Positions 824-6,533 of a stretch of DNA of 8,479 nt are shown here, piece by piece. The notes under the pieces were generated by a model. It saw only the letters and a list, made by a program, of their open reading frames with translations, did not search any database and was not told where the DNA came from. The stretch covers positions 1-8,479 of the forward strand of contig JAFWXB010000121.1 in NCBI GenBank assembly GCA_017523185.1. The letters are read 5' to 3'. This stretch comes from Lachnospiraceae bacterium (GTDB taxonomy: Bacteria; Bacillota_A; Clostridia; Lachnospirales; Lachnospiraceae). Made by a program: the position numbers and the translations under genes. Every line of letters starts with the position of its first letter. Position 1 is the stretch's first letter.

Positions 824-1684
824 TTAAACTACTATTTCCATCTGCTTTGTTATTCGATTGAAATAATAGATATTATTAGATAACCAAAGTTCTTGCTCTA
901 TTTCTTTTATACTAATTTTTTTCATAATTTCAGCTAATTCTCTTGGTTTTATTTTTTCTTCTTCTAAAATTAATGTAACTTCTTCTATGGAATTCGGAAA
1001 AATATAAATATTTTTTTGATGCTTTTGTGCTAATAATTCTAATAAATCTATTCTTAGTATTCCACAAGCACCATCATACCTTGTTTTATTTGTCATTACA
1101 TATTCCTTATTTTCTATTTCTTCAAATGAAAATTCATTAATAAGTTTCCTAATATCATAAATGATAAATTCTTTTGATTTTAAATTATTCATTGCAATTT
1201 CAAATAGTTCTTTTTCGTTTATCTCCCAATTTCGTAACATCTCTTTTGAAATTGGATAAGAACACATGCTTCTTTCTTCTTTAAGATGTATTTTATAAAT
1301 AATTGCTAAATCAAGAAAGCTTTTAAATACTATATTTTCTAAAAATTCTTGATTCCACTCTTTATTAATTAAATAAGGATAAATTCGCTTTTTTACAGAA
1401 TCCCACTCTCTATTTAATATTTCTGGCATTTTTATATAACCAGCTTCTATCATAAATTGAATTAAACTTTTACAAGTTTTTTCAAGGTTTTTATGTTTTT
1501 TATAATCTTCATACAGATTATCCCACGCAATAATAGGAATTTCTTCCATATTTTCGATTCGAAATGTTAAAAACTCTTTCACTACATGATTATTCTTTAT
1601 AATCACTTTATTAAACAGTTCTATGTCATTTGGCAACTCCTCTTTTAGTTTTTGAATTAAATTGTTTTTAAATTCGTTATACAT
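824..1684 (-). CDS. DUF5688-like protein of unknown function
   Basis: A 286-residue cytoplasmic protein; start fixed by AGGAGG at 1691-1696 with 6-nt spacing to ATG. No signal peptide or membrane segment is visible. It has the pattern I associate with DUF5688 proteins, abundant in Lachnospiraceae: an N-terminal alpha-helical part, a central FLDLAIIYKI segment (123-132), and a conserved C-terminal module with YVMTNKTRYDGACGIL (195-210), a beta-strand-like IYIFPNSIEEVTLI (226-239) and an LSNNIYYFNR ending (268-277). In relatives the same module reads roughly 'YVLTN...GA..ML... FYILPSSIHEVIL... LS..VY.YDR'. The biochemical function is unknown to me. It stands alone on its strand, with the terminator at 632-661 downstream and the Rpn remnant upstream. 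Paralogue-rich accessory families like this often sit near mobile DNA, as here. Confidence 0.75.
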   Translation of the reverse strand: MYNEFKNNLIQKLKEELPNDIELFNKVIIKNNHVVKEFLTFRIENMEEIPIIAWDNLYEDYKKHKNLEKTCKSLIQFMIEAGYIKMPEILNREWDSVKKRIYPYLINKEWNQEFLENIVFKSFLDLAIIYKIHLKEERSMCSYPISKEMLRNWEINEKELFEIAMNNLKSKEFIIYDIRKLINEFSFEEIENKEYVMTNKTRYDGACGILRIDLLELLAQKHQKNIYIFPNSIEEVTLILEEEKIKPRELAEIMKKISIKEIEQELWLSNNIYYFNRITKQMEIVV

Positions 1685-1871: not shown

Positions 1872-2051
1872 TTAATCTACTTTCTCATTTTTTATCATTT
1901 CCACATATTCTGCCTGCTCTGATTCCGGTATCTCTAATATTCTCATTACTTCTTGTACAGATAATTGCATATTTTTCATTAAATTAATGATAGAAACTAA
2001 AATACCTTTTTTTATTCCCGTTTGCTCTACACCTTTACTTAAATTACACAT
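1872..2051 (-). CDS. Stand-alone Rpn C-terminal domain (putative antitoxin-like small protein)
   Basis: A 59-residue reading frame starting MCNLSKGVEQ. It is homologous to residues 259-324 of the full-length Rpn protein at 4462-5436: charged KG linker, then ILVSIINLMKNMQLS and a helical ending (LEIPESEQAEYVEM). I chose the ATG at 2049-2051 because a perfect AGGAGG (2060-2065) lies 8 nt before it; the upstream in-frame GTG at 2084 has no clear ribosome site. The tail differs from the full-length protein at many positions but has no frameshift or stop, unlike the region just upstream. It may be a decaying remnant, or a retained small protein that binds the Rpn nuclease, as the intragenic antitoxins of E. 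coli Rpn proteins do. The second reading is inference. Confidence 0.5.
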   Translation of the reverse strand: MCNLSKGVEQTGIKKGILVSIINLMKNMQLSVQEVMRILEIPESEQAEYVEMIKNEKVD

Positions 2052-2159
2052 CAGCGATACCTCCTGTTCCAATTTTTGAATCACCTGTATTTCAAAATCT
2101 TCTTTTAATATTTGCTTCTTTTCCTATACATTTGTCTTCGTAAATAATAAACTATTATT
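1872..2159 (-). pseudogene. 3' remnant of an Rpn/PD-(D/E)XK nuclease gene
   Basis: Reading upstream of 2051 in the same frame gives NNSLLFTKTNV, a TAG stop (2124-2126), then EKKQILKEDFEIQ. This aligns directly with residues about 222-247 of the full-length Rpn protein, where the stop position holds a Gln (CAG to TAG). A second in-frame stop lies at 2160-2162, where similarity ends. The nuclease domain is missing entirely. As an Rpn gene this copy is therefore broken by both N-terminal deletion and a nonsense codon, although the frame from 2051 onward is intact. Confidence 0.75.
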
Positions 2160-2199
2160 CTATACACATCTATTAATTTTATTACTTTTTATAAAACCC

Positions 2200-2484
2200 T
2201 TAAAATACTTCTATCTCTTTCAACATAAGCAATGTATTTCTTACTCCTACTAAATATGCAATATCACAAACACGAGCATTTGCTGTCCAAATAGAAACAG
2301 TATAGTCTTCTACTATTTTCTGTTGATATTGGTCTAAATTAAGAGCTTCTAATTGTTTTTCTTGTTCGGCTAGTTCTTTCTTGTTTTGAATATAAATTTC
2401 ATCATTTTTTAATTGTTCTTCTATACTATACTCTATAATATTTCCTAACCCCATTTCAAGTAGTTCTTCTACTATCTTTCCCAT
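2200..2484 (-). CDS. Small helical protein, possibly DUF6809-like
   Basis: A 94-residue protein with AAGGAGG (2491-2497) 6 nt before its ATG, so translation looks genuine. It is predicted to be mostly alpha-helical: an N-terminal acidic helix (MGKIVEELLEMGLGN), a charged coiled-coil-like centre (KNDEIYIQNKKELAEQEKQLEAL, about residues 26-48), and a C-terminal region ending AYLVGVRNTLLMLKE. The layout (helical middle with Lys/Glu, then a short 'F/Y..G...G..L' helix near the end) recalls DUF6809-type small proteins seen with clostridial phage and mobile elements, but I hold this loosely. No catalytic motif is visible. It is divergent from the XRE gene at 2593, and the palindromic control region between them suggests co-regulation. 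Confidence 0.6.
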   Translation of the reverse strand: MGKIVEELLEMGLGNIIEYSIEEQLKNDEIYIQNKKELAEQEKQLEALNLDQYQQKIVEDYTVSIWTANARVCDIAYLVGVRNTLLMLKEIEVF

Positions 2485-2592: not shown

Positions 2593-2799
2593 GTGATAAA
2601 AATTATAGATTATACACCACTTTGGGAAACAATGCGTAAAAAGAATATATCACAATATCAACTATTAAAATCGGGCATTGATAATAAAACTTTAGACTCT
2701 TTAAAGAAAAACAAAAATATTACACTTCTTACCGTTGAAAAAATTTGTAAAATTTTAAATTGTACTCCAAATGATATTGTACTATTTCAAGATGAATAA
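2593..2799 (+). CDS. Small XRE/Cro-C1-type HTH regulator (start uncertain)
   Basis: A 68-residue single-domain repressor of the same short family as the protein at 388-612. The pattern is DYTPLWETMRKKNISQYQLLK, then IDNKTLDSLKKNKNITLLTVEKICKILNCTPNDIV, with the recognition helix around NKTLDSLKKNK. The start is unclear. GTG at 2593 is the only conventional candidate near the end of homology, but AAAGGA ends only 1 nt before it. The stretch AAGGACGTGAT (2587-2597) is a near-perfect complement of the 16S 3' end, and 8 nt after its core lies an in-frame ATT (2602-2604), a rare start codon. Either choice leaves the HTH domain intact. It is divergent from the small gene at 2200-2484, and its stop lies at the edge of a long inverted repeat that may terminate it. 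Confidence 0.8.
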   Translation: MIKIIDYTPLWETMRKKNISQYQLLKSGIDNKTLDSLKKNKNITLLTVEKICKILNCTPNDIVLFQDE

Positions 2800-2924: not shown

Positions 2925-3413
2925 CTATTTCTGTTTTATTTTCTTATTGAAAATCACTTCATCAATTAAAATATCCATACACTTTTTAGCATATTCTCTT
3001 AACTCACTAATATCAAAAAATCCACAATAATTTCCATTCGTATATGCAACAGTATTGATTCCCATATGAATATGTAAATGTTTGGTGTCATCATGTACTG
3101 CAAATATTACTTGTCTTTCATAAGCAAAATATTGTGCTATCATTTCTGCTAATCTTCTTACCTCTAAAGGTGTAAAAGGTAAACTTTCTTCAATCGAAAT
3201 TACGATATGAACAATCTGCTTATTTTCCATTTTATTATATACTTTTTTTACCATATAAAATTCTCTTATAACCAAATCCGGAGAGATAGCAAACACTCCA
3301 TAACCACCTATTAACTTTGGGTTTTGTAATCTCATAATATAATTTACTACTTTTTCTACTGCATCATGATTTCTATAATTTCCTTGTGGTAAACTTACTA
3401 TAACTGCTGACAT
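2925..3413 (-). CDS. Minimal relaxase/mobilization nuclease domain protein (MobA-like, HUH)
   Basis: A 162-residue protein that matches only the catalytic core of MOBP-type relaxases (PF03432-like), which nick oriT and stay covalently bound through a tyrosine. Visible motifs: an N-terminal VVNYIMR with candidate nucleophile Tyr25, and the metal-binding HUH motif HDDTKHLHIHMGIN (107-120, His112, His114 and His116, followed by the family's Asn120). Classical relaxases are 300-600 residues with C-terminal domains; here the protein ends soon after the core in a basic tail (NKKIKQK). It overlaps the upstream MobC-like gene by 16 nt, implying translational coupling; the nearest Shine-Dalgarno (GAGAGG, 3426-3431) is 12 nt from the ATG. 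Catalytic residues look intact, so it may be a compact functional relaxase or a truncated one. Confidence 0.85.
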   Translation of the reverse strand: MSAVIVSLPQGNYRNHDAVEKVVNYIMRLQNPKLIGGYGVFAISPDLVIREFYMVKKVYNKMENKQIVHIVISIEESLPFTPLEVRRLAEMIAQYFAYERQVIFAVHDDTKHLHIHMGINTVAYTNGNYCGFFDISELREYAKKCMDILIDEVIFNKKIKQK

Positions 3414-3676
3414 ATATATTCTATTCCTCTCACTAATTTTTTTTCATCTTCTTCTAATAATTCGTATCTATGTATAATATCTGTACATACTGTTGATAAT
3501 TCACATACAGCTTTGATGCAATTTGTATTTGTATGATTTAACTTCTCATAAACTGCTTGTCTAATATAGTCACTTTCACTAATTCCCATATTTCTTGAAG
3601 CTCTCTCTATTTTTATAGATTCTTCTTCTGTAAATCTAATTGTTTTCTTTTGTATTCTTTCTTTACTTCCGTTCAT
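3398..3676 (-). CDS. MobC-like ribbon-helix-helix relaxosome accessory protein
   Basis: A 92-residue protein with a short basic N-terminus (MNGSKERIQKK), then TIRFTEEESIKIERASRNMG and ISESDYIRQAV, the ribbon-helix-helix signature of mobilization accessory proteins that bind oriT and help the relaxase nick. I start at the ATG at 3674-3676, which has AAAGGA (3685-3690) at 8 nt; the longer frame from GTG 3700 or ATG 3694 has no ribosome site and would include the Shine-Dalgarno. The C-terminal half is helical and acidic (YELLEEDEKKLVRG). It overlaps the relaxase gene by 16 nt, forming a two-gene mobilization operon, with the hairpin-rich oriT candidate just upstream. The family assignment rests on the RHH pattern plus gene order. 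Confidence 0.8.
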   Translation of the reverse strand: MNGSKERIQKKTIRFTEEESIKIERASRNMGISESDYIRQAVYEKLNHTNTNCIKAVCELSTVCTDIIHRYELLEEDEKKLVRGIEYICQQL

Positions 3677-3709
3677 TCTTCTTTTCCTTTCCATTGACAC
3701 TATTTAGCA

Positions 3710-3759
3710 GGTAATCAACTGTCCGACATTTCTGTCTTTCAGTCAATTACCTACGGTAA
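3710..3759. other. Candidate origin of transfer (oriT) hairpin region
   Basis: Upstream of the mobC-like gene lies a nested inverted repeat: GGTAAT (3710-3715) with ATTACC (3746-3751), ACTG (3718-3721) with CAGT (3740-3743), and GACA (3725-3728) with TGTC (3733-3736). A second perfect repeat TTACC-TAC-GGTAA (3747-3759) shares its arm, giving three related GGTAA-type units. Hairpins directly beside mobC/relaxase genes are where oriT is usually found. It is less AT-rich than the flanking sequence. No nic site can be assigned by eye. Confidence 0.45.
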
Positions 3760-3899: not shown

Positions 3900-4103
3900 A
3901 TGTTTCAAAATACTTACAATGATATGATAAGCATTGATGATTTATGTGAAATGCTCACAATCGGAAAAAATACTGCTTACCATCTATTAAAAACAAATCA
4001 AATAAAAGCATTTAAAATTGGTCGAATATGGAAAATTCCTAGAAATTCTGTTTCTGATTATGTAGTATCACAAACAAAAAATAATATTCCGTTTTCCAAA
4101 TAA
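3900..4103 (+). CDS. Excisionase/MerR-like helix-turn-helix DNA-binding protein
   Basis: A 67-residue protein with GGAGG 9 nt before its ATG. It matches the HTH_17 'excisionase family DNA-binding domain': ISIDDLCEMLTIGKNTAYHLLK (about residues 10-31), then the wing IKAFKIGRIWKIPRNSVSDYV (35-55). The GRIWKIPRN segment is the hallmark of this winged-helix family. Such proteins bend DNA at attachment sites to direct integrases toward excision, or act as small regulators. It is divergent from the mobilization pair and close to the candidate oriT, as expected in an integrative mobilizable element. However, no integrase gene is present in this window, so an Xis role is inferred from family and neighbours only. 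Confidence 0.85.
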   Translation: MFQNTYNDMISIDDLCEMLTIGKNTAYHLLKTNQIKAFKIGRIWKIPRNSVSDYVVSQTKNNIPFSK

Positions 4104-4136
4104 AAGCTAAACTTTTTATTATGATTTCTTAAGAAA

Positions 4137-4172
4137 AAGTCCTCAGAAGTATATTAAACTTCTGAGGACTTC
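4137..4172 (-). terminator. Strong bidirectional terminator between excisionase and second Rpn fragment
   Basis: A perfect 14-bp stem, AAGTCCTCAGAAGT (4137-4150) with ACTTCTGAGGACTT (4159-4172), and an 8-nt loop. On the minus strand it runs into TTTTTCTT and ends the transcript reading through 4201-4410; on the plus strand it lies 33 nt after the excisionase stop and may serve that gene too. Confidence 0.85.
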
Positions 4173-4200
4173 TTACTGTAACCTTTTTGGCTATTCCATC

Positions 4201-4410
4201 TTAACTATAATTTTTTAATATCTCTATATATTCTGCTTGTTCTTCTTTTGGTATCTCTAATACATTCATTGTTTCCATTTCTGATAAATGCATATTTTTC
4301 ATTAAATTTATAATAGAAACTAATACGCCTTGTTTTTTTCCTTGTTCTATCCCTTGTTCTATCCCTTTTTTTCTGCCTTTTTCTTCTACGCCTTTACTTA
4401 AATTACACAT
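4201..4410 (-). CDS. Second stand-alone Rpn C-terminal domain (putative antitoxin-like small protein)
   Basis: A 69-residue frame starting MCNLSKGVEEKGRKKG and almost identical at DNA level to the 3' end of the adjacent full-length Rpn gene (4281-4410 against 4545-4662). It carries one extra GIEQ unit in its linker, then GVLVSIINLMKNMHLS and a more diverged ending. GAGG (4419-4422) stands 8 nt before the ATG. Homology continues about 11 codons upstream (ITKITNEVLQ) before an in-frame TAG at 4456-4458, only a few bases from the full-length gene's stop (4462). It is most simply a tandem duplicate of the C-terminal coding segment. Preservation of the Shine-Dalgarno, start, frame and a downstream terminator leaves open that the small protein is made and acts on the Rpn nuclease. 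It could equally be an untranslated relic. Confidence 0.55.
   Translation of the reverse strand: MCNLSKGVEEKGRKKGIEQGIEQGKKQGVLVSIINLMKNMHLSEMETMNVLEIPKEEQAEYIEILKNYS
4281..4410. repeat. Rpn tail direct repeat, copy 1 (130 bp)
   Basis: Identical to 4545-4662 apart from one additional 12-bp unit. The pair forms a direct repeat about 260 bp apart that could support deletion or expansion by recombination. Confidence 0.85.
4341..4364. repeat. 12-bp tandem repeat in the linker of the Rpn tail
   Basis: Two exact copies of CTTGTTCTATCC, coding on the minus strand for repeated GIEQ in the Gly/Lys/Glu-rich linker. The full-length gene has a single copy at the matching place, indicating in-frame slippage. 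Confidence 0.85.
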
Positions 4411-4461
4411 TTGTAATACCTCATTTGTAATTTTTGTAATATTTATATTTAAAAGCTATTT

Positions 4462-5436
4462 TTATCCCCTTTCATTTTTCAGCATTTCTCTATACTCTTC
4501 TTGTTCTATTTCTGATATACCTAATACATTCATAGCTTCTAATTCTGATAAATGCATATTTTTCATTAAATTTATAATAGAAACTAATACGCCTTGTTTT
4601 TTTCCTTGTTCTATCCCTTTTTTTCTGCCTTTTTCTTCTACGCCTTTACTTAAATTACACATCTCAGTTACCTCTCTTTCTAACCTTTGGGTCATCTGTA
4701 TCTGAAAATCTTCTCTTAATATCTGCTTCTTTTCTTGTACATTTGTATCTGTAGATAACAAGGTATCTAATAATTTCAATACTCCATTATAATTTTTATC
4801 TTTTGATTCTCCTAAGCACAATAAAATAACAGTCATTAAATCATAATTGATTTTTTCTTGTTTTACATTTCCTATCATATTTTCTTCTGTAATTATATAA
4901 CGTGTAATACTATTTTGCCATTTCTTTGGTGGAGTTGTACATACCCAAATAGAATATACTTTTTTAATTTTTTCATAATGAGAACCTTCAAACTCTGTAC
5001 CATATTGAGCTGAAATCATACGACTACAATAATAAATTCCTCTTTTAATTAAGGGATAGCCAGGATAAAAATCATTTTGTGCTTCTACATTGATAATTAA
5101 CTGTATTTTTTCTTTTGAATTTGGAACAAATGCTAAAAAACGAATATCATAAGTGATTGTTCCCTCTGTCATAGTTGTATCTTCTGTATTCAATCCTCGT
5201 ATCATAGATGCATTTGTTTCATCTGGTAAAACAGCTACTTTACTTACTTGTGGTGTACCCTCTATATATTTTTCTGATATTTCATTGACATCATAATCTT
5301 TATATTCTTCCAAACAAGATTTCATAATCCATGCAAGAATAATTTTCTCTGAAAGCAGACATTTACAAGCCTCATCATATTTGGCTTTATCATCTGCAAT
5401 TCGTATATTTTTTGCAATTGTTGTTTCTATATCCAT
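4462..5436 (-). CDS. Rpn-family PD-(D/E)XK nuclease (annotated elsewhere as transposase-like)
   Basis: A 324-residue protein; AGGAG at 5445-5449 is 8 nt before the ATG. It belongs to the Rpn/PDDEXK_2 'recombination-promoting nuclease' group, DNA endonucleases with toxic or anti-phage roles in E. coli. Motifs: catalytic Asp97 in TYDIRFLAF, then INVEAQ (115-120) with Glu118 and Gln120, the E-x-Q form of the (D/E)xK site, followed by YPLIKRGIYYCSRMISAQYG (127-146) as in family members. The C-terminus (259-324) is a KG/EQ-rich linker, then VLVSIINLMKNMHLS and a helical end. The catalytic residues and length look intact. The nucleotide sequence contains GAGAGG (4671-4676) 8 nt before Met259, a possible internal start for the C-terminal domain. 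It probably has its own transcription unit, with a palindrome just upstream and the terminator at 5583-5619 isolating it from the P-loop gene. Confidence 0.88.
   Translation of the reverse strand: MDIETTIAKNIRIADDKAKYDEACKCLLSEKIILAWIMKSCLEEYKDYDVNEISEKYIEGTPQVSKVAVLPDETNASMIRGLNTEDTTMTEGTITYDIRFLAFVPNSKEKIQLIINVEAQNDFYPGYPLIKRGIYYCSRMISAQYGTEFEGSHYEKIKKVYSIWVCTTPPKKWQNSITRYIITEENMIGNVKQEKINYDLMTVILLCLGESKDKNYNGVLKLLDTLLSTDTNVQEKKQILREDFQIQMTQRLEREVTEMCNLSKGVEEKGRKKGIEQGKKQGVLVSIINLMKNMHLSELEAMNVLGISEIEQEEYREMLKNERG
4660..4676 (-). promoter_or_regulatory. Internal ribosome binding site and start in the Rpn gene
   Basis: GAGAGG (4676-4671, minus) precedes ATG (4662-4660) by 8 nt, in frame with the Rpn protein at Met259. 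The same GAGG-8 nt-ATG arrangement is kept in both stand-alone tail copies, at 2051 and 4410. The conserved Glu uses GAG in all three copies although GAA is favoured in such AT-rich DNA. Confidence 0.5.
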
Positions 5437-5457
5437 AATATCATCTCCTATAATATA

Positions 5458-5741: not shown

Positions 5742-6533
5742 TTACTTAATCAATTTTATAATATCTTCTATCTTCCACTCTTTTGCTGTAAGAATTACTG
5801 CTTTATTATCAATTACTTCTTTTATAATACGCAATTCCAATTGTTGTCTATGTTGAAAATGGGTTATCATATCTTCCAATGTCCTATATCCATAACTTTT
5901 GCCATATGGAGAATCTATCAAATATTTCAACATCATTGGATACCACATTTCATTTCCCATACTATCACTACGTTCTTTTTTTATTATTGCAATACTTTCT
6001 TCTAATTTATCGCTATATAAATACAATAATAAAAAGTGTTCTTTATCAATTTTACTATATAATTCATAATAAAATGTCACAATTTCATCATCACTTAATT
6101 GATAAAATAAAATCAATTCTTCTATAATATTTTGAAAAAACGAACATTCCAATAAATAATCTGTTTCTGTAAAATTTTTATACCTTGTAAAAATAATTTC
6201 TTTAAATTCTTGTAACGTTTTTCTTCCATTATATATTTCAAATTTTTCTAATTCTTTATGAAAATTTGGAACATCTGTAATAATTTTTGTATAAGAAATT
6301 ATAAAATGGTTATCTTCTTGAACTGTATTTTTTATTATTTCATCTTGTAATGTATTATACTGTTTTAAAATAGCGTCATATTCTTCTTTTGTCATCCATG
6401 TACACCATGCCAGTTCTACCGGGGAATAATCACCTTCTCTGCAAATATGTAACTGTGGCAAGACAGTAAAAATGCGATTTAACAAGGTAGATTTACCCAT
6501 TCCTTGAATTCCTTCTATAAATATATTTTTCAT
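5742..6533 (-). CDS. P-loop kinase-like NTPase of uncharacterized family
   Basis: A 263-residue cytoplasmic protein. A Walker A motif GIQGMGKST (8-16) starts directly after the first beta strand, as in thymidylate and deoxynucleoside kinases. Other conserved-looking segments are CREGDYSPVELAW (31-43), YTKIITD (81-87), EIYNGR (99-104), LECSFFQNIIEEL (128-140, at the place of the 'DR' strand of dNK/TMK kinases) and KKERSD (185-190), resembling a LID with catalytic Arg. I recall similar unnamed proteins in Lachnospiraceae, but no proven substrate. Phosphoryl transfer to a small molecule is a reasonable inference from the fold; the specific reaction is unknown. The Shine-Dalgarno is weak (AGGA, 12 nt from ATG), suggesting low expression. 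It is transcribed separately: terminators lie on both sides. Confidence 0.8.
   Translation of the reverse strand: MKNIFIEGIQGMGKSTLLNRIFTVLPQLHICREGDYSPVELAWCTWMTKEEYDAILKQYNTLQDEIIKNTVQEDNHFIISYTKIITDVPNFHKELEKFEIYNGRKTLQEFKEIIFTRYKNFTETDYLLECSFFQNIIEELILFYQLSDDEIVTFYYELYSKIDKEHFLLLYLYSDKLEESIAIIKKERSDSMGNEMWYPMMLKYLIDSPYGKSYGYRTLEDMITHFQHRQQLELRIIKEVIDNKAVILTAKEWKIEDIIKLIK

Follow-up and report, generated by a model that had tools for sequence, protein, structure and literature searches.

The reverse strand of an 8,479-nucleotide stretch of DNA from a Lachnospiraceae bacterium (the window, meaning throughout the whole stretch analysed) carries at positions 4462–5436 a nuclease gene, rpnL, in which a second translational start lies in frame near the 3′ end; initiation at this internal start is, as judged from the codons of its homologues, under selection, and its use in the window gene itself is, on the sequence, close to certain. 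We estimate a probability of about 0.82 that rpnL and the short frame nested within it, rpnS, form a gene-within-gene toxin-antitoxin system belonging to a divergent clostridial branch of the PDDEXK_2 family. The ATG at 5436 would give rise to the nuclease RpnL, and the ATG at 4662, set behind GAGAGG and eight nucleotides, would independently give rise to a 66-residue RpnS, as the comparative codon evidence supports. In the RpnS model a long helix that bears the 4-residue repeats precedes two short helices; by analogy with Escherichia coli, RpnS would bind the matching domain of RpnL, so that the nuclease stays inactive until a trigger arrives, for example phage infection. An rpnS-like solo gene, longer by one repeat, is probably cotranscribed, and the transcript would be ended by a hairpin behind it.

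The 324-residue reading frame of rpnL opens with ATG (A at 5436) behind the ribosome binding site AGGAG (5445–5449, reverse strand; pairing −6.9 kcal/mol), and family profiles and invariant residues predict a full-length PDDEXK_2/Rpn-family nuclease and putative toxin. Its match to Pfam PF12784 (PDDEXK_2; E 9.1e-6, 26.0 bits) narrowly misses the cut-off of 27.4, and its match to TIGR01784 (the Rpn family; E 5.4e-7, 29.7 bits) misses that of 52.1; the same TIGR01784 profile gives 160.9 bits for E. coli RpnA and 174.1 bits for one canonical clostridial PDDEXK_2 protein. Since TIGR01784 recognises RpnA, the canonical clostridial protein and, below cut-off, the window protein, we read the last as a member of a divergent branch of the family that contains the other two. 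Database searching returned 5289 relatives at E ≤ 0.001, and alignment A1 comprises 50 homologues from among the best 120 of these; D97, E118 and Q120, which make up a D...ExQ nuclease motif, are invariant across all 50 and by analogy may be catalytic, and PF12784 is matched at E ≤ 0.01 by 44 of the 50. A profile comparison of RpnA with A1 reached a probability of 5%, its alignment nonetheless placing Met259 of the window protein on Met244 of RpnA. Sequence searches of the PDB gave no match with A1 and eleven with a further alignment, A2, none of them Rpn. The fold search with the full-length model returned nothing significant (best E 0.097), the top rank going to the restriction endonuclease PaqCI and the eighth to FokI, with folds of no relation to them in between. 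A PADLOC scan of five window proteins produced just two weak matches, Cas10 to the rpnL protein (E 0.0051) and mad8 to the protein at 5742–6533 (E 0.0081), both taken as chance.

A preliminary description of this DNA had pointed to GAGAGG, eight nucleotides and an in-frame ATG at Met259 of the Rpn protein, leaving 66 residues, and the sequence bears this out: the Shine-Dalgarno (SD) sequence GAGAGG occupies 4671–4676 and the rpnS frame 4462–4662, both on the reverse strand, and the sequence ahead of Met259 (A of ATG at 4662) reads ...AGAAAGAGAGGTAACTGAG. The further statement that the Glu codon supplying GAG is GAG in all three family copies of the window also holds, with GAGG-N8-ATG in each, but the third copy is a C-terminal remnant and not a whole gene. 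When anti-SD pairing was calculated for every in-frame ATG, GTG and TTG of rpnL, Met259 ranked best (−7.0 kcal/mol), Met1 followed (−6.9) and the third candidate stood at −3.1. RNA structure across the internal start is ordinary (z −0.88) and Rfam gave no match. A candidate internal promoter, of the kind found in E. coli, was discarded: one site (4921–4892, reverse strand) matched at 10 of 12 positions, and the number of sites, 14 against 12.2 ± 3.5 in shuffles, lies within the shuffle range and so provides no evidence of a promoter.

Homologous DNA was assembled from genome-contig loci (the best 80 of 218 relatives), one viral contig, which held the single relative found in one scan of viral contigs, and genomes searched with A1 (11, then 200, of which 74 matched), from which additional loci were picked by hand. 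An hmmsearch of this material gave 243 frames, 176 of them full-length with 143 distinct 3′ ends, the duplicates arising where loci had been taken twice; a non-redundant set of 102 genes at below 90% identity was used for the codon tests. The column of Met259 reads ATG in 159, GTG in 12, TTG in three and CTA and CTG in one each of the 176 full-length frames. The 102 genes give ATG 89, GTG 8, TTG 3, CTA 1 and CTG 1, so that a start codon stands there in 100 of 102; 11 of the 13 codons other than ATG are GTG or TTG, an Ile codon occurs in none of the homologues, and the two genes with CTA or CTG (L179 and L186) have instead, seven codons upstream, a TTG accompanied by an SD. The preliminary description had proposed that an excess of GAG over GAA and a fixed Met be sought in relatives, and both are found: the start codon shows no random loss, and Glu255 is encoded by GAG in 68 of 70 genes, where 28.4 are expected from each gene's own Glu usage. 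The excess persists at 80, 70 and 60% identity levels (48/50, 38/39 and 26/27, where 10.6 would be expected for the last). For Glu253, which precedes it by two codons, GAG accounts for just 4/40, 2/31 and 2/17 cases at these levels. Where Glu255 is missing (32 of 102), pairing is −5.8 or stronger in 22 genes, between −4 and −5.8 in nine and nearly nil in one (L136); one gene that retains Glu255 also pairs weakly (−4 to −5.8). Arg, mostly AGG, replaces Glu255 in 10 of the 32 and the SD is kept in another reading (GAA AGG AGG or GAA GGG AGG), as in GAA AGG AGG CTT TTG ACA GTG. Gene by gene, a start codon with pairing of −5.8 or stronger is present in 89 of the 102, one between −4 and −5.8 in ten and a weak one in a single gene, L179 and L186 making up the remaining two; for comparison, pairing at column 1 averages −6.6 among the 26 genes that have their own start there.

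Resampling codons synonymously within each gene, and scoring alignment columns 8 to 317 wherever at least 50 genes were present, placed column 259 first for SD pairing beyond that of the shuffles (observed −8.23, expected −4.63, t −21.1). Columns 260, 258, 261 and 257, which reflect the same SD, followed, and then 266 (t −5.4) and 193 (t −3.9); at the Met columns 38, 140, 187, 201, 248 and 291 the observed minus expected pairing was between −0.17 and +0.26. With genes clustered at 90, 70, 60 and 50% identity, the observed mean was reached by none of 500 shuffles in each case. The test has power on the set as a whole, single-gene shuffles giving p ≤ 0.05 in 5% of genes because GAG is a common codon.

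The signal extends to canonical PF12784 genes of Clostridia and relatives (81 full-length frames, reduced to 53 representatives). When columns were scanned without a preset site, two clusters came out on top, an internal one at approximately columns 455–466 and another at approximately 169–178, which we take to be the genes' own start, since each frame extended from one stop codon to the next; column 456, the exact start, stands second after 455, and the weaker columns outside both clusters stand low in the list. A start codon occupies column 456 in 25 of 53 genes, with pairing of −6 or stronger in 24 of the 25, and a Glu lies four codons before it in 24, encoded by GAG every time, while the same genes use 380 GAG and 524 GAA overall. 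A strong SD-start lies within 12 codons on either side in 47 of 53 genes, against 37 of 318 control windows, all upstream and from the same genes, this fixed-window test being mildly circular in that its position was chosen from those genes; of the 28 genes that lack a start at that precise column, 22 still have a strong SD-start. These two tests superseded a first scan for the best C-terminal start in 25 genes, which was merely suggestive (Fisher p 0.064; 0.79 for the middle region). Certain subgroups have the start displaced by −8, −3, +5, +7 or +12 codons with the SD moving along, and such joint displacement suggests that selection acts on translation rather than on the protein sequence. 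As a positive control, the same scan of E. coli rpnA ranked Met244 first (−6.9) and Met1 second (−6.3); Met244 is the internal start proven by mutation (Zhong et al. 2023, PMC10327210).

Together, the excess of GAG, the retention of the start column, SD pairing beyond shuffles, the canonical PDDEXK_2 signal and the rpnA control are the grounds for regarding internal initiation as selected, and they support the proposal of the preliminary description that an internal start is used as in E. coli Rpn genes. The GAGG does lie at the junction of the nuclease domain and the C-terminal helix, where an SD-like pause site or a mere codon preference could be imagined with no second protein made. We give this almost no credence: the start codon is retained at near-fixed spacing, lost ATGs have become GTG or TTG in 11 of 13 cases, canonical genes shift SD and start jointly over −8 to +12 codons, and the internal ATG is the very point at which the solo copies begin.

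What the small protein does is a separate matter. Initiation from a signal of this kind yields an antitoxin in E. coli, where the small intragenic C-terminal RpnS has been shown to be the antitoxin of RpnL (PMC10327210), and we consider an antitoxin function of the window RpnS, by analogy, distinctly probable; the reading draws on the principle described by Zhong et al. 2023 (PMC10327210) and on the expression of RpnS from a Clostridioides difficile gene, and a part in phage defence would likewise be supposed on the strength of that paper. AlphaFold2 (AF2) models of the 66-residue product (pLDDT 87) have helices at residues 4–36, 40–46 and 51–65, in line with a predicted three-helix fold, and the model of the full-length protein (pLDDT 75) has a long helix at 250–294 and then two short ones. 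In the A2 alignment the 4-residue repeats set in roughly 12 residues into the product, and their number differs greatly among homologues; the reported onset is 8–20 residues after the internal Met (PMC10327210), a range into which the window falls. Fold searches with the RpnS model found nothing significant, and RpnAS (PDB 7TH0, a three-helix bundle) was absent among the matches listed. The model has a weak similarity to DeoR-type DNA-binding domains, at a level too low to be informative where helical bundles are concerned.

That weak similarity would suit a small protein that is genuinely made and yet is no antitoxin, being instead a structural partner or regulator, for instance an obligate subunit or an autorepressor acting through its helix-turn-helix-like end. 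The comparative data establish selected initiation and nothing beyond, and other genes-within-genes yield subunits or modulators, such as Cas11d (PMC10327210) and, in the available part of a 2025 review, McrBS from mcrB (PMC12707154). We nevertheless regard this as rather improbable, because TIGR01784 is common to the window protein (below cut-off) and E. coli RpnA, the start signal near the 3′ end and the placement of the repeats are as in E. coli, and solo copies are kept in tandem as at rpnC and rpnE, in a family whose E. coli RpnS is a demonstrated antitoxin.

Two further rpnS-like sequences lie in the window. A solo gene of 69 codons (4201–4410, reverse strand), with GAGG (4419–4422) eight nucleotides ahead of its ATG at 4410, has one GIEQ repeat more than the C-terminus of rpnL and an altered end, and its nucleotide match to rpnL starts at the internal ATG itself. 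Behind it lies a strong terminator-like hairpin running into a T-run (4134–4174, reverse strand; fold −25.7 kcal/mol, z −7.0), corresponding to inverted repeat I1. In the interval that separates rpnL from the solo gene a pattern scan detected no terminator, and a shared transcript is likely but no more than that, because the scan overlooked the hairpin at 4134–4174 too. The remnant (1872–2200, reverse strand) belongs to another rpn gene: a stop upstream of its conserved part closes the frame, leaving an open RpnS frame of 59 codons (1872–2051) behind AGGAGG (2060–2065) and eight nucleotides, with its ATG at 2051. Its RpnS part has a shorter repeat stretch and closely resembles the C-terminus of P0016, a 318-residue homologue, and so the remnant probably derives from a gene other than the main copy.

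The remnant, together with a relaxase fragment elsewhere in the window, raises the question of whether the signal is simply ancestral to the family and the window copy is decaying, with neither protein functional; the Ka/Ks of 0.48 between the C-termini of the main and solo copies is likewise not clearly under the value expected from one relaxed copy. Such decay seems very unlikely, given that the 324-residue frame is intact, the family-invariant D97, E118 and Q120 are present and the two start signals of rpnL are the two best in the gene.

Solo genes recur in the family. An MCNLS-like start was found within 1500 nt downstream of 16 of 144 non-redundant full genes, giving 17 starts and 14 frames of at least 50 residues, a lower bound because some stretches end sooner and the search pattern was strict. 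Identity between solo and neighbour in 16 pairs is 0.32–0.54 from −90 to −13, 0.67–0.68 in the 12 nt immediately preceding the ATG and 0.85–0.89 from +18 to +29, the first 15 nt being high by construction; the resemblance of solo copies to their neighbour thus sets in abruptly, at about the internal start. Ka/Ks for 13 of the 14 solos (L055 excepted) is 0.06–0.36 in 12, the window pair being the thirteenth, and such low ratios suggest selection on most of the solos, with the proviso that the ratio mixes both copies. Solo length differs from that of the neighbouring RpnL C-terminus in 12 of 14 cases, in eight by a multiple of four residues, and is equal in L009 and L159; several of the loci are closely related and repeat number is very variable, so that mismatch by itself proves little. 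Given that repeat number sets RpnL–RpnS pairing in E. coli (PMC10327210), mismatched solos would misfit the neighbouring RpnL. Such solos may give protection from RpnL proteins, whether incoming or sister, or may mark module exchange in which the old antitoxin was left behind; that solo RpnS genes form a kept antitoxin repertoire for other Rpn specificities is a tentative idea, which we hold to be doubtful.

At locus L076, near-identity between rpnL and the solo that follows it sets in about 20 nt ahead of the ATG, but the C-terminal part of the solo is unrelated to that of its neighbour, which suggests module exchange; L079 has a truncated 26-residue counterpart. From these sequences, exchange of a C-terminal module is possible at both loci. 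In polymorphic toxins of the CDI type, orphan immunity modules arise when a displaced C-terminal module stays behind a gene that has gained a new one, and the L076 solo would resemble such a displaced module. The parallel is limited, in that the Rpn module is presumed to inhibit the very toxin that contains it, and contact-dependent delivery is not implied.

The closest known system is RpnL/RpnS of E. coli (RpnA–E and RpnP2; PMC10327210), which shares the Rpn-family nuclease, a strong internal SD and start near the 3′ end, a C-terminal product with variable 4-residue repeats, and extra downstream rpnS genes, already known for rpnC and rpnE (PMC10327210); it differs in TIGR01784 score (160.9 bits for RpnA, 29.7 for the window protein) and at the C-terminus, which in the window begins MCNLSKG. 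The C. difficile rpn gene (PMC10327210) is likewise Gram-positive, and its RpnS is made in E. coli and lost when the predicted ribosome binding site and start are mutated; the available part of that paper reports no toxicity for it. Canonical clostridial PDDEXK_2 genes have the internal signal in 47 of 53, but its codon position shifts over −8 to +12 and the product is longer (84–141 codons in the 25 genes with the aligned-column start). In E. coli McrBL/McrBS, as described in the accessible portion of PMC12707154, a nuclease-system gene is also internally initiated and its C-terminal product dampens activity, although McrBS does so by withdrawing the partner McrC and belongs to an unrelated protein family.

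A MobA/VirD2-type relaxase fragment of 162 residues (2925–3413, reverse strand) overlaps a NikA-like protein (3398–3700, reverse strand), and a 20-nt imperfect inverted repeat (3709–3752) lies just upstream of these mobilization genes; from its sequence, the region 2925–3752 resembles a decayed mobilizable element together with an oriT-like site. An HTH_17 protein (3900–4103, forward strand), presumably excisionase-like, is encoded in the space that parts these mobilization genes from the rpn locus. The window also encodes two small Cro/C1-type HTH_26 proteins (370–612 and 2593–2799, forward strand) and a DUF5688 protein (824–1684, reverse strand; E 7.6e-55).

According to Zhong et al. (PMC10327210), who place Rpn in the PD-(D/E)XK superfamily and whose main text contains neither 'PDDEXK' nor 'Lachno', rpn genes have neither terminal inverted repeats nor target duplications. 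The same authors argued that COG5464 'transposases' are toxin-antitoxin genes, and the suggestion in the preliminary description that many 'transposases' of this family are really toxin-antitoxin genes is therefore not new; the 2025 review, in its accessible part, cites their PNAS version for rpn as toxin-antitoxin (PMC12707154). Literature searches, in which subscription journals were thinly covered and which for Rpn antitoxins and for PDDEXK_2/Rpn took in the top 20 of 506 and of 27 papers, listed Zhong et al. alone among reports of RpnS and found nothing on Rpn in Lachnospiraceae or on solo antitoxins with Rpn; PMC5350276 is a further paper on E. coli Rpn proteins. The principle is thus published, and what is new here is the branch-wide comparative evidence and the question of the solo copies.

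PDDEXK_2 'transposase' genes are plentiful in gut Clostridia, as the 5289 relatives of the window protein (E ≤ 0.001) illustrate, and a selected internal start in nearly all of the genes sampled calls for annotating them as genes with two products, toxin-antitoxin systems being the likeliest kind. With the SD-start signature, the Rpn model can be put to a simple test on genomes of bacteria for which it is untried, and solo genes with mismatched repeats offer a direct way of testing whether immunity groups are defined by repeat number.
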